Part shown: in pieces, positions 7,207 to 40,602 of the stretch
Position numbering within the stretch: the stretch's first letter is position 1
How the letters are laid out: each line of letters opens with the position of its first letter
Virus record (IMG/VR): IMGVR_UViG_3300031722_000011
Span: 39,444 to 103,443 of that record
Source of the DNA: a virus
DNA: 64,000 nt
Strand: one strand, 5' to 3'
The notes under the pieces: model-generated
Database searches by the model: none
What the model was told of the DNA's origin: nothing
What the model saw: only the letters and a program-made list of their open reading frames with translations
Translations under genes and position numbers: made by a program

Positions 7207-7776
7207 ATGAGTTCGTTGGATAGTTTTAAAGTGTTTAAAGATTATATTAAAAGGTTTGTACTTGAAGACCAAGAATTACAAAAACTCATCTACTATCCTT
7301 ATAGTACTTGCTTAGATGAAAATAACTTAGCAAATCCATTTGATATATTTTCAGAAGAAACTGCAACAGATAATGAAAATGGGGTACATGGGGTGCTATT
7401 GTTTAAAAGACAATCTGATATTGTTATGAATGCAGAAATGCCATTGGTTCTAGTGTCGTTTGAGAATGCAAAGAAGAGTAAAGAGTTTTCAAACATTTAT
7501 ATAATTTTCAAAATTATTTGTAAAGGTAATAATATACAGGAATTAGAAAATGGAGATTCTAGAATTTATAGTATTCAAAGAAAAATAAACGATAATTTTG
7601 CTATGGCAAATGTAAATGGATTAGGACAAGTTGAAGAAAACTCATTCAAAGAACTTTCTATAAACTCTAATAATGATGCCATGCTCTTAATGTATAAGGC
7701 ATATTCATTCAATTCAAACATATCAACTAATAAAAACTTTAAGAAAAGAATGTTTGGTGACAATTATGCAAATTGA
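7207..7776 (+). CDS. tail completion/terminator protein candidate
   Basis: The 189-residue protein follows the connectors and precedes the tail tube gene, which is the usual place for a tail terminator. It has a strong ribosome binding site (GGAGGTGATG). The C-terminal 11 nt of the gene overlap the next start, suggesting coupled translation. The family is not recognised directly. Confidence 0.45.
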   Translation: MSSLDSFKVFKDYIKRFVLEDQELQKLIYYPYSTCLDENNLANPFDIFSEETATDNENGVHGVLLFKRQSDIVMNAEMPLVLVSFENAKKSKEFSNIYIIFKIICKGNNIQELENGDSRIYSIQRKINDNFAMANVNGLGQVEENSFKELSINSNNDAMLLMYKAYSFNSNISTNKNFKKRMFGDNYAN

Positions 7777-8587
7777 TGATTTAGAATATAGGTTGATTAG
7801 GTCGTTAAATATTCCTTATATGAGAGTCAAAATTAGACAACCTCGTTTAAGTGATATAGATGATGAGAGTGTAGGTTTATTAAGATATTCAAGCTATAAA
7901 TCTTTATTTACTCTTAGAAAAGAGCATTTAAATATGAATGAAGAATTAATTGATATAACTAAAGACAATAGTTTTTTTGAAACTTTATTTATAATAGACG
8001 ATTATTATATGAAGCAGGGTTTGATTGATAGAGTTCCATTTATTGATATGTTAATAATGTCGTTAATCTTCTTTTTAGATGTGAATGTTGATACTGATAA
8101 AATAAGTAAAAACGTTAGAGAGAAATATATTGGTATATTTAATGAACAAGAACAACCGATATTTATATTGAGCAATGATAATTTTGAAGAATTTAGTGAA
8201 TTAATTAGAATTATTTGTTGTTGTAATATGATTGAGGTTGAAAGTGATAAGCCTAAAAATCCCTATAAAAATGAAAGTCTAAGAAGAAAATTTGAAAAAA
8301 TACAAAGACAAAATGCAGAAGTAGAAGCAAAGAAGAGAAAAGAGAATGAAATAACTATTGCTGATATGATTGGCTTAATAGGAATTAATGAAATAACAAA
8401 ATATAAATTAAATCAAGATATGGATAATTTGACTATATGGCAATTAAATTATATTTACAATGGAATGTTTGTTAGAGAAAGTAATGAGTTCACAAAAATG
8501 CAATTTTGTAGTTATAAATTTTCTTTTGAAAAAACACCATCATTTAATTGGATAAAAGAGACAAAAGTTAAATTACCTGAAAAGTAA
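7766..8587 (+). CDS. tail-module protein with a central KKR-rich helix
   Basis: I choose the ATG at 7766 (GGTGA at 7756-7760) over the in-frame TTG at 7754; it overlaps the upstream gene by 11 nt. The product has 273 residues. Its second half contains ESLRRKFEKIQRQNAEVEAKKRKE followed by EITIADMIGLIGINEITKYK and an LTIWQLNYIYNGM segment. That order is seen in some phage proteins linked to tail assembly. The cluster Cys-Cys-Cys at about residue 150 is unusual. The function is uncertain. Confidence 0.45.
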   Translation: MQIDDLEYRLIRSLNIPYMRVKIRQPRLSDIDDESVGLLRYSSYKSLFTLRKEHLNMNEELIDITKDNSFFETLFIIDDYYMKQGLIDRVPFIDMLIMSLIFFLDVNVDTDKISKNVREKYIGIFNEQEQPIFILSNDNFEEFSELIRIICCCNMIEVESDKPKNPYKNESLRRKFEKIQRQNAEVEAKKRKENEITIADMIGLIGINEITKYKLNQDMDNLTIWQLNYIYNGMFVRESNEFTKMQFCSYKFSFEKTPSFNWIKETKVKLPEK

Positions 8588-10611: not shown

Positions 10612-10738
10612 AATTTATTTAATGTATGTATGAGTAATTTATGACTAAGGGTAGCTCCCTTAGTCGGATTATTCTAATTAAATAAACAATGGGGAATATG
10701 ATTAAAATGTATGTGAAAATACATACATTAAATAAATT
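10612..10738 (+). promoter_or_regulatory. structured 5' leader of the antirepressor gene with two exclusive folds
   Basis: An 18-bp perfect long-range stem joins 10612-10629 to 10721-10738. It encloses a very stable hairpin GACTAAGGG/CCCTTAGTC (10643-10651, 10657-10665). The 3' arm can instead form a local hairpin ATGTATGT/ACATACAT (10707-10714, 10721-10728). The arm ends a few bases before the Shine-Dalgarno of the antirepressor gene. A small hairpin TGATGT/ACATCA (10593-10610) precedes it. The sequence shows the folds; a switching role is inferred. Confidence 0.6.
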
Positions 10739-37933: not shown

Positions 37934-37983
37934 ATTTTTATACAATGGTTAACAAATAAATTTAAAAAGTGAGGTTAACGAAA

Positions 37984-38742
37984 ATGAACATTAACAAATT
38001 AGAAACAGGAATGGTACTAAAAAGTTATAGAGAGTTATGTAAGGTTTTGGATTGGGAAATTGCAAGTGGCAACGCAAAAAAGAAACAACTAAGAATACTT
38101 AGAGAATTGTGTAAATATGAAAAGCGAGGGAATACTTTCATTATAAAAGAAATATATGATGTTAAGAATGTATGTTTGGATATGAGAGGAAAAGCCATTG
38201 GAATAGATAGTAATAGTTGGAAAGAATATGAGCAACTTAAAATTTCTTATGAGGAAAGAGATAATATAGGAATTTACTATATTATAAAAGACAAGGATGT
38301 TTATATTGGTTCTACTACATGGGGATTCAGAAATAGATTTTTACAACATTATCATGGATATGACGAATTAATGAAACATACCTATGAACTATTACAAGAT
38401 AGTGGTGAATTTTATATACTTCATGATATGACAGGTATAGAAGATGAAGTATTGATAAGGCAAGTGGAAGATAAATATATACAATATTTTAAAAATAATA
38501 CTGATTATAATGTTATTAATAAAAAAGAAAATGCCTACAGTTTAACAGAAAAGAAGATAAAAAATAAAAAGATAAAATACAGAATACTTAAACTAAAAAT
38601 TAAAGAAGATAAATATGAACAAGCTATGCAGTTATTAATTAACAATGGATTATTAGATTTAGAAGAAGAAAATACTCCTACTAATAATTATATTTTAAAT
38701 GGTATGCTTGGAAATTTTGATATAAACAATATACCATTTTAG
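37984..38742 (+). CDS. GIY-YIG endonuclease with shared N-terminal domain
   Basis: I start at the ATG at 37984 (GTGAGG, spacing 9); this aligns with the paralogue at 38828. The product has 252 residues. Residues about 1-62 (MNINKLETGMVLKSYRELCK...GNTFIIKEIYD) are shared with the next gene. Residues about 92-170 carry the GIY-YIG core (NIGIYYIIKDKDVYIGSTTWGFRNRF) with an Asp/Glu-rich end. The Lys-rich tail is about 190-252. It is probably a selfish or regulatory nuclease, expressed from its own promoter through the structured leader. Confidence 0.7.
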   Translation: MNINKLETGMVLKSYRELCKVLDWEIASGNAKKKQLRILRELCKYEKRGNTFIIKEIYDVKNVCLDMRGKAIGIDSNSWKEYEQLKISYEERDNIGIYYIIKDKDVYIGSTTWGFRNRFLQHYHGYDELMKHTYELLQDSGEFYILHDMTGIEDEVLIRQVEDKYIQYFKNNTDYNVINKKENAYSLTEKKIKNKKIKYRILKLKIKEDKYEQAMQLLINNGLLDLEEENTPTNNYILNGMLGNFDINNIPF

Positions 38743-38827: not shown

Positions 38828-39928
38828 ATGAATATAGATAAATTAATAGAAGGTTTAGTGGTTAAAAATTATAAACAAATGTGTGAGTTACTTAGCCAAA
38901 CTGTAAAAGGTGGAGATAGTAAAAAGGCACAATTAAAAGAATGGTCTACATATTTCAACTATGAAAAGGATGGAAATAAATTTGTAATTAAAGAAATTTA
39001 TGACGCACAACTAGAAAAAGAAGATGGTAGAAAAATATTAAGCATAGATGACAAAAGATATAATAGTGTATATGGAGATGATATCCAACAATTATTATTG
39101 CTTTTAATTGCTTCTTCTTCTGAAGATGATGAAATAATATTACCAGCCACAGTATTATTGAATAAATTATCTATGATTAATAAAAATTACTCTTTGGCTA
39201 GAAAGAATCAAGATAAGTTATCTGAAATATTGGAAATAGATGAAAAATACATAAATGAATTCTATGGAACAACACATAGTAATTTAAAAGCTAGTTTAGA
39301 ATCTTCTATGAATTCATTAAGAAGACGAGCATTAATTACTTGGACTACTGTTAGAATGGTATGTAAGAAAGTATTAGTAACAAATTATAATGAACTTGAT
39401 GAAATAGTTATTGATGATATGGATAAAATTTCTTATTCAATAAAAGAAGAATATAGTATTGCAGATAAAGAACAAGATCTTATAATTCTTGAAGCTGAAA
39501 GATTGACATTAAAAGACATGGAATATGAAAGTATAGGACAAGTTATAAGAGATGGTAAAATTAAAGATTTTTATACTTCTGTTTATAAAATGATACAATC
39601 TAAAGCAAATATAAAATATTATTTCAATGCCTATCAAATTAAGTTTAATAAAGATTTAATCATTGATGCTTTAGAAATGTATGGTGAAGACTTAAATCAT
39701 ATAAAAATTCAATTGAATAATAAAGTGAAAGAAAAGTTATTTGATAATGCTATTAACAGACAAGAAAAAGTAGAAAATGAAATAAAAGATATAATAGGAG
39801 TTCCTAAATTAAAGAAAAATCAAAAGTTGAGAATTGAAAAAGATTATTTAGATAATATTCAATTATTGATTAATACTGTTATACATATGACTTCTAAAGA
39901 TATAAGAAACAAATTAAAAGTTGACTAA
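38828..39928 (+). CDS. paralogue sharing the N-terminal domain, no nuclease motif
   Basis: The start ATG at 38828 (AAGGAG, spacing 9) gives MNIDKLIEGLVVKNYKQMCEL, aligned with MNINKLETGMVLKSYRELCK upstream. The protein has 366 residues. The shared domain (about 1-65) ends GNKFVIKEIYD. The remaining about 300 residues are helical and charged, without GIY-YIG signatures. The shared domain may bind DNA or RNA. The gene's last codons contribute one arm of the alternative hairpins at 39916. Confidence 0.55.
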   Translation: MNIDKLIEGLVVKNYKQMCELLSQTVKGGDSKKAQLKEWSTYFNYEKDGNKFVIKEIYDAQLEKEDGRKILSIDDKRYNSVYGDDIQQLLLLLIASSSEDDEIILPATVLLNKLSMINKNYSLARKNQDKLSEILEIDEKYINEFYGTTHSNLKASLESSMNSLRRRALITWTTVRMVCKKVLVTNYNELDEIVIDDMDKISYSIKEEYSIADKEQDLIILEAERLTLKDMEYESIGQVIRDGKIKDFYTSVYKMIQSKANIKYYFNAYQIKFNKDLIIDALEMYGEDLNHIKIQLNNKVKEKLFDNAINRQEKVENEIKDIIGVPKLKKNQKLRIEKDYLDNIQLLINTVIHMTSKDIRNKLKVD

Positions 39929-40042
39929 CTATCACCCACTATAATAGACAAGGACGATTTTGAATATACGTCCCGTATATAATATATAGTTAGTGATTTA
40001 TAGTCAACTTTTGATAAATTATATTAAACTAATCAAAAGTTG
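39916..40042 (+). repeat. mutually exclusive hairpins at the 3' end of the paralogue gene
   Basis: AAAAGTTGACTA (39916-39927, including the stop codon) is complementary to TAGTCAACTTTT (40001-40012). The overlapping segment CAACTTTTGAT (40005-40015) is also complementary to ATCAAAAGTTG (40032-40042). CTAACTAT/ATAGTTAG (39925-39932, 39986-39993) and GGACG/CGTCC nest inside. Only one of the two long stems can form at a time. No T tract follows either. Confidence 0.6.
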
Positions 40043-40080
40043 TACATAATTAATAACCTCAATAGAAAAACAAATTAAAG

Positions 40081-40238
40081 TATCATTTGGATTGTGAGGA
40101 ACGAACAAGACAAGCCTTTGGTTCTTGTGGCTACAAGAATATATATTAACAATCAACAATCAATAGAAGGCTTAGACCAGCCCGAACGTTCCGTTCTCCT
40201 CGGTCTTGTCTGCCAAACGAGTTGGCATCCAAATGATA
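40081..40238 (+). ncRNA. novel structured RNA candidate upstream of a GIY-YIG gene
   Basis: This 158-nt element has about 42% G+C, far above its surroundings. The helices are: closing stem TATCATTTGGAT/ATCCAAATGATA (40081-40092, 40227-40238); ACAAGAC/GTCTTGT (40105-40111, 40203-40209); AAGCCTT/AAGGCTT (40112-40118, 40167-40173); hairpin TTCTTGT/ACAAGAA (40122-40139); hairpin TGCCAA/TTGGCA (40211-40227). GGAACG (40098-40103) could form a pseudoknot with CGTTCC (40187-40192). I could not match it to a known class, and no group I intron core was seen. Confidence 0.6.
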
Positions 40239-40278
40239 TTTGTCAACTATTTAAAATAAATTATTAAGGAGATTAAAT

Positions 40279-40602
40279 ATGAAAGTTGATAATAAAATGG
40301 GTGTATATATTCTAATAGACAAACAAAGAAGTGATGAAGAAAATATAGTTTATAAAATTGGATTCAGTTCAAAAGTTAGAAATAGAATAAATCAAATTAA
40401 AAAGACGTATTCATTTTTGGGACAAGATAATGAACTTGAGGTATTTACTATTATATATTGTAATCAAGCAAAAAAGTTAGAAGGTCACTTACATACTATG
40501 TTAAAATTTGCAAAGCTGATAGATAAACATGAGTGGTTTAAAAGTAGCTATGAAACATTAAACAATAGGCTTTTTAAAATTTCATTAGCAGATTATAAAT
40601 AA
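40279..40602 (+). CDS. small GIY-YIG protein (T5orf172/MUG113-like)
   Basis: The 107-residue protein carries MGVYILIDKQ...VYKIGFSSKVRNRINQIKKTY and a distal Glu in KKLEGHLHTMLKFAKLIDKHEWFK, the layout of T5orf172/MUG113-type GIY-YIG domains. It has a ribosome binding site (AAGGAG) 41 nt after the structured RNA at 40081-40238. The catalytic roles are inferred from the family pattern. Confidence 0.7.
   Translation: MKVDNKMGVYILIDKQRSDEENIVYKIGFSSKVRNRINQIKKTYSFLGQDNELEVFTIIYCNQAKKLEGHLHTMLKFAKLIDKHEWFKSSYETLNNRLFKISLADYK

Follow-up and report, generated by a model that had tools for sequence, protein, structure and literature searches.

On the plus strand of the window (the whole 64,000-nt stretch of DNA analysed here, which covers 39444-103443 of a virus record of 103,443 bases), the segment 40081..40238 belongs, as a divergent member, to a family of phage elements that had not been listed before. 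The 13 distinct loci of this family share an intergenic placement and an orientation with the upstream gene, their downstream neighbours change, and their halves have been exchanged. The reading we put forward, at a probability of about 0.4, is that the element is a separate phage RNA of a new, fast-evolving non-coding family.

The original prediction described a G+C-rich, multi-helix RNA at these coordinates, and both the coordinates and the composition are confirmed: the G+C content of the 158 nts is 41.8%, against 27.3% for the window, and only 9 of 3,193 sliding 158-nt windows have an equal or higher value. The minimum free energy (MFE) of the element is -45.0 kcal/mol (z -3.64), a stability that one of 200 dinucleotide shuffles reaches, and none of 300 shuffles has a terminal inverted repeat as long as its 12 bp. 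The minus strand folds better than the plus strand (MFE -49.9), so the strand is not given by stability alone. Against the 4,227 families of Rfam 15 the element falls below every gathering threshold, and a permissive search (E<=5) returns no match beyond chance, in line with the prediction that no known class fits. The statement that no intron core is visible also holds, as no Rfam intron model matches at E<=5 over 39900-40300. Neither the 12 relatives at curated thresholds nor L108 and L030 at permissive thresholds match any Rfam ribozyme or intron. Retron, tRNA-like and HEARO readings were rejected, with no Rfam or ARAGORN match.

The route to the relatives was the protein encoded upstream (family phrog_36702), a search with which returned 64 loci in viruses and 11 in genomes. 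Sequence relatives of the element lie 3' of phrog_36702 genes, with E-values from 1e-10 to 1e-3. BLAST matches the element to L041/L044, L076 and L030, and L039 and L071 connect to the family through L030 and L076. Pattern scans with the shared pieces contributed seven further distinct loci, and a third such scan contributed none. The 13 loci are the window, L030, L039, L041, L071, L076, L104, L106, L107, L108, L113, L115 and L120. The carriers are Firmicutes-type phages, most of them with a YonO-like RNA polymerase, and there is about one copy per phage record, with two in G001. Direct nucleotide searches of phage and plasmid collections with the window element yield chance matches only, and searches with the relatives L030, L041, L039 and L108 find none. 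We discarded the 24 matches of a 16-base pattern scan, all due to chance, and the matches of L124-L126 to the middle pattern, whose number is about the chance expectation. The exact 3' motif has no copy in 397 Clostridiaceae genomes, and in 77 host genomes from a single genus blastn finds nothing.

Across the family the element measures about 130-190 nts and has a modular anatomy. The 5' block, GGATTGTGA(n)GAACAAGACAA, is followed by a variable module that is pseudoknot-like in the window, L076, L030 and L041, then in most members by a middle hairpin AAC-AA-CC[GNNA]GG-GC-GUU, and in ten loci by the 3' block GTCTTGTAGCTANCGCTACGCTTTTCTTCC(AC)CTTACGG(TG)TCAGANAAT. The window has the 5' block TATCATTTGGATTGTGAGGAACGAACAAGACAA at 40081..40113 (plus strand), which includes the family signature GGATTGTGA..GAACAAGAC and aligns at 97% over 33 nts with L041 and L044; the match to L076 extends over 46 nts at 87%, and much of the block is also present in L104 and L106. 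Of the 3' block GTCTTGTAGCTANCGCTACGC the window keeps only GTCTTGT, to which it adds a hairpin of its own; the remainder is missing, and model R1 has no match at the element. Its placement is that of the family, intergenic and 3' of a same-strand gene and of that gene's long-loop hairpin. Halves are swapped among loci, with a 5' half common to L030 and L041 and a 3' half common to L030, L039 and L076. The 5' halves of L030 and L041 are 93% identical, and their adjacent genes 77%, or 48% at four-fold sites. In L106 a 5' block runs into a 3' block in inverted orientation, and a terminase gene lies a short way downstream.

All of the helices named in the original prediction can be located on the plus strand of the window, and comparison with the relatives separates them. 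One that the relatives support, by the recurrence of its sequence, is the putative first 7-bp helix, P2 (ACAAGAC/GTCTTGT, 40105-40111/40203-40209). Both of its strands are perfect in L030, L076, L104 and L108; L115 and L120 have six of seven, and P2 is absent or altered in L039, L071 and L107. In the MFE fold of the element it is register-shifted. The relatives do not support the other emphasised helices. The 12-bp closing helix (40081-40092/40227-40238) stands out against the shuffles and is specific to the window: L041, the nearest relative, keeps the 5' strand and lacks the partner, with only 5 bp possible. The second 7-bp helix (40112-40118/40167-40173) and the proposed 6-bp pseudoknot (40098-40103/40187-40192) have no counterpart in the relatives. 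The pseudoknot-like module lies at 40113..40139 on the plus strand, where an AGCC...GGCT stem (40113-40116/40129-40132) is interleaved with a hairpin (40122-40128/40133-40139). Directly 3' of P2, the hairpin TGCCAA-ACGAG-TTGGCA (40211..40227, plus strand; stem 40211-40216/40222-40227) takes the place at which relatives have GTAGC-TANC-GCTAC.

Some of these parts show paired changes. Within an otherwise identical 20-nt stretch, AGCC/GGCU in the window becomes AGGC/GCCU in L076, one compensatory pair, and the module of L030 and L041 agrees in topology and differs in sequence. The 3' hairpin changes from UUUUCU/AGAGAA to UUAUCU/AGAUAA between L108 and L120 (U-G to A-U), and the middle hairpin includes a C-G to U-A change. 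The stem of the 3' hairpin also has a 2-nt insertion on both sides that is jointly present or absent in ten loci, and that differs within the sister pairs L039/L071 and L108/L120. The compensatory pair supports a probable upstream pseudoknot-like fold, and the coordinated indels support a probable 3' hairpin. Formal covariation in the family is weak: two-sided changes occur in 1 of 11 pairs (six sequences), and shuffles do as well in 250 of 500 cases. The folding z-scores of the relatives, from -1.4 to -3.5, are not exceptional, and their minus strands fold about equally well. In a hand-made list of helices, G-U pairs outnumber A-C pairs by only 7 to 2. A further candidate pairing, GCGTTAG/CTAACGC, is perfect in five loci, has one mismatch in L030 and L107 and is missing from the rest; for these reasons we do not treat it as conserved. 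The likeness of the two G001 copies could reflect gene conversion rather than selection. The original prediction had named homologues without compensatory changes as evidence against it, and the outcome is divided, since some helices do have paired changes and the emphasised ones do not recur. Its broader claim of a structured RNA of an unlisted class gains support from the family of relatives, from the lack of an Rfam match and from these paired changes.

The neighbours of the element vary on both sides. The upstream gene belongs to phrog_36702 in 6 of the 13 loci, encodes a 244-253-aa protein in three, a DEAD/ResIII-like (helicase-like) protein in two and a 616-aa protein in one; L106 has none within reach. 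Downstream there is a GIY-YIG gene in four loci, a YonO gene in two, a terminase gene in one, a convergent gene in L104, and unknown genes in the rest. Because the genes on both sides vary, the sole constant is the position behind a co-directional gene, a same-strand gene preceding the element in 12 of 13 loci. Directly upstream of the element, most members have no promoter above chance. The predicted small GIY-YIG neighbour is real, a T5orf172/MUG113 gene of 107 aa (40279..40602, plus strand) with its own ribosome-binding site, AAGGAG. Such a gene adjoins the element in the window, L041, L039 and L071 and is missing beside the other nine, so that the neighbourhood is not a constant one. The only close relative of the window's GIY-YIG gene found in IMG/VR, L002 (58% identity), has about 30 nts upstream of it and no element; the pairing of gene and RNA is therefore not obligate. 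We also considered an intron reading in which a repeat, AAAGTTGA, at 39917 and 40282 would allow 365 nts to be removed and the frames to be joined. We rejected it on account of the missing intron core, the gene's own ribosome-binding site, and the GIY-YIG gene that stands alone in L002.

The phrog_36702 gene of the window (38828..39928, plus strand) encodes 366-369 aa depending on the start, with a predicted N-terminal winged-helix-like domain; its fold model (pLDDT 88) has no PDB match at E<=0.001. That the 244-aa genes share this winged helix was proposed and dropped, as profile comparison gave no support. The preceding gene (37969-38742) has its N-terminal 65 or so aa in common with the phrog_36702 gene, after which comes a GIY-YIG-like stretch, GIYYIIKDKDVYIGST; it is a fused version of the element's neighbours. 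A long-loop hairpin, AAAAGTTGACTA/TAGTCAACTTTT plus inner pairs, lies over the stop codon of the phrog_36702 gene (39913..40015, plus strand). Genes of this family (loci L029-L103) commonly have a hairpin of the type AAAAGTTGNC...GNCAACTTTT at their stop codon or shortly after it, the stem measuring 12-25 bp and the loop 20-60 nts. The median best-hairpin score is 13.0 for 57 phrog_36702 genes versus 7.5 for 204 other gene ends, with scores of at least 15 in 20/57 versus 4/204, and the gaps 3' of phrog_36702 genes are somewhat more structured than controls (median z -3.1 versus -1.9, p 0.003). Other structured pieces occur near these genes. In the Bacillus-type loci L051, L093 and L098, a loop GGA-NC-GNA-GN-GGA is found about +160 to +210 after the phrog_36702 stop, between that gene and a YonO-type gene, with a G-C to A-U paired change (GGAGCGCAGCGGA / GGAACGTAGTGGA). 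In Geobacillus virus E3 (L027:2447-2622), the phrog_36702 homologue gp200 is followed by a hairpin, a promoter-like site TTGACT-17-TATAAT and an element of about 137 nts with a closing stem of about 27 bp (z -4.4), for which a search of other phages gave no relative. A phage contig related by phrog_36702 has a Pistol ribozyme according to Rfam (L036:7824-7891). It is a speculative idea, which we consider improbable, that after phrog_36702 genes there is regularly a long-loop hairpin and next a structured RNA specific to the lineage (the present family in one phage group, the GGA-NC-GNA-GN-GGA hairpin RNA in Bacillus-type phages, the 137-nt element in Geobacillus virus E3), and that protein and RNA together make up a system, so far undescribed, of phages with a YonO polymerase, which would evolve by swapping RNA modules.

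A protein of family phrog_8308 is encoded in 10 of 14 records (the 13 carriers and the record of L002); among 14 control genomes it matches only in Bacillus subtilis, and its SPbeta counterpart is the single-chain RNA polymerase YonO (PMC5467207). The 2017 characterisation of YonO left its promoter requirements open, and mentions an ncRNA, not annotated, at the site from which YonO begins late transcription (PMC5467207). The yonN-yonK gap of SPbeta (L152:6407-8089) is 1.7 kb of non-coding sequence with a DUF3800-VIII RNA at 7767-7832. In several records the YonO-like match is broken by stop codons (G000:C1:19084-20760, outside the window, and G001, G008, G009 and G013), and in the SPbeta-like phage BUCT083 the yonO gene carries an inserted GIY-YIG gene; these interrupted genes probably contain introns or insertions. 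At 10612-10738 the window has a 20-bp perfect inverted repeat, AATTTATTTAATGTATGTAT, with a second hairpin inside its 87-nt loop; a ribosome-binding-site-like AAAGGAGA comes shortly after the repeat.

The family is found after many different genes, and a stand-alone RNA is therefore more probable than a GIY-YIG partner. We infer that such an RNA would be transcribed in the direction of the upstream gene, by read-through, as that gene's 3' region behind the long-loop hairpin. It may then be cut out of the read-through transcript, or end it, to give a separate phage RNA, which may act by binding a partner of phage or host origin by way of the conserved GGAUUGUGA..GAACAAGAC and GUCUUGU(AGCUAACGCUACGC). 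Four rival explanations compete with this separate RNA. The one we weigh most heavily, although we hold it less probable, is a modular inverted-repeat DNA element, BOX-like or marking a recombination or homing boundary, whose folds would be by-products of its inverted repeats. Pieces shuffled and inverted at the DNA level, such as the exchanged halves and the inverted 3' block of L106, fit it, as do the near-equal folding of both strands and the clustering of T5orf172 nucleases and gene swaps at these sites; T5orf172 genes have been reported at boundaries of genetic exchange in phages (PMC10448857). Against it stand the single copy in most phages, the lack of the 3' motif in the Clostridiaceae genomes, the co-orientation with the upstream gene in 12 of 13 loci, and the paired point changes.

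Somewhat less probable again is a role in cis, as a leader or transcript element of the genes downstream, for example as an antitermination element of the HK022 put/EAR type or a translation/attenuation switch. In the window, L030, L039, L041, L113 and L115 the element does follow a terminator-like hairpin, with a start codon a short distance downstream; in G010 and G011 it immediately precedes YonO genes; and put RNAs, which phages carry, lie downstream of early promoters (PMC9378689). However, the varying downstream gene and the convergent gene in L104 argue against a leader of one gene, which as a general reading is excluded, and in L108 and L120 a promoter-like TTGACT-17-TAATAT lies between the element and the next gene. 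That the RNA is the functional partner of the small GIY-YIG protein, as originally proposed, is very improbable: the four adjoining T5orf172-type genes speak for it, but L002 without the element and the nine elements without the gene leave the proposal unsupported and, as a general rule, largely refuted. Equally slim is the chance of a self-cleaving ribozyme or intron remnant, which the compact multi-helix fold and pseudoknot-like module might suggest, but for which the Rfam searches of the window and its relatives found no match.

Several known systems resemble the element in part. BOX/RUP-like repeats are modular, structured, intergenic and mosaic, with inverted pieces, as is the element; they differ in copy number, as the element has about one copy per phage and no multi-copy host repeat was found. 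DUF3800 RNAs, which have no function assigned in Rfam, are likewise small structured phage RNAs beside genes of unknown function, but no Rfam model matches the element, and we found no DUF3800 gene in the element-carrying phages. HEARO and omega-RNA are structured RNAs near a nuclease gene, as in some element loci, whereas the element mostly lacks such a gene and has no Rfam match. The HK022 put RNA is also a structured intergenic phage RNA with one or two copies per genome; at about 70 nts, with two stem-loops, and downstream of early promoters (PMC9378689), it differs from the longer element, which has no constant downstream operon. If the element is an RNA, it would represent an unlisted modular ncRNA family in phages with their own single-chain polymerase YonO, and would offer RNA-seq and knock-out experiments a small, concrete target. 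A mosaic DNA element would instead mark recombination boundaries beside homing-type nucleases.
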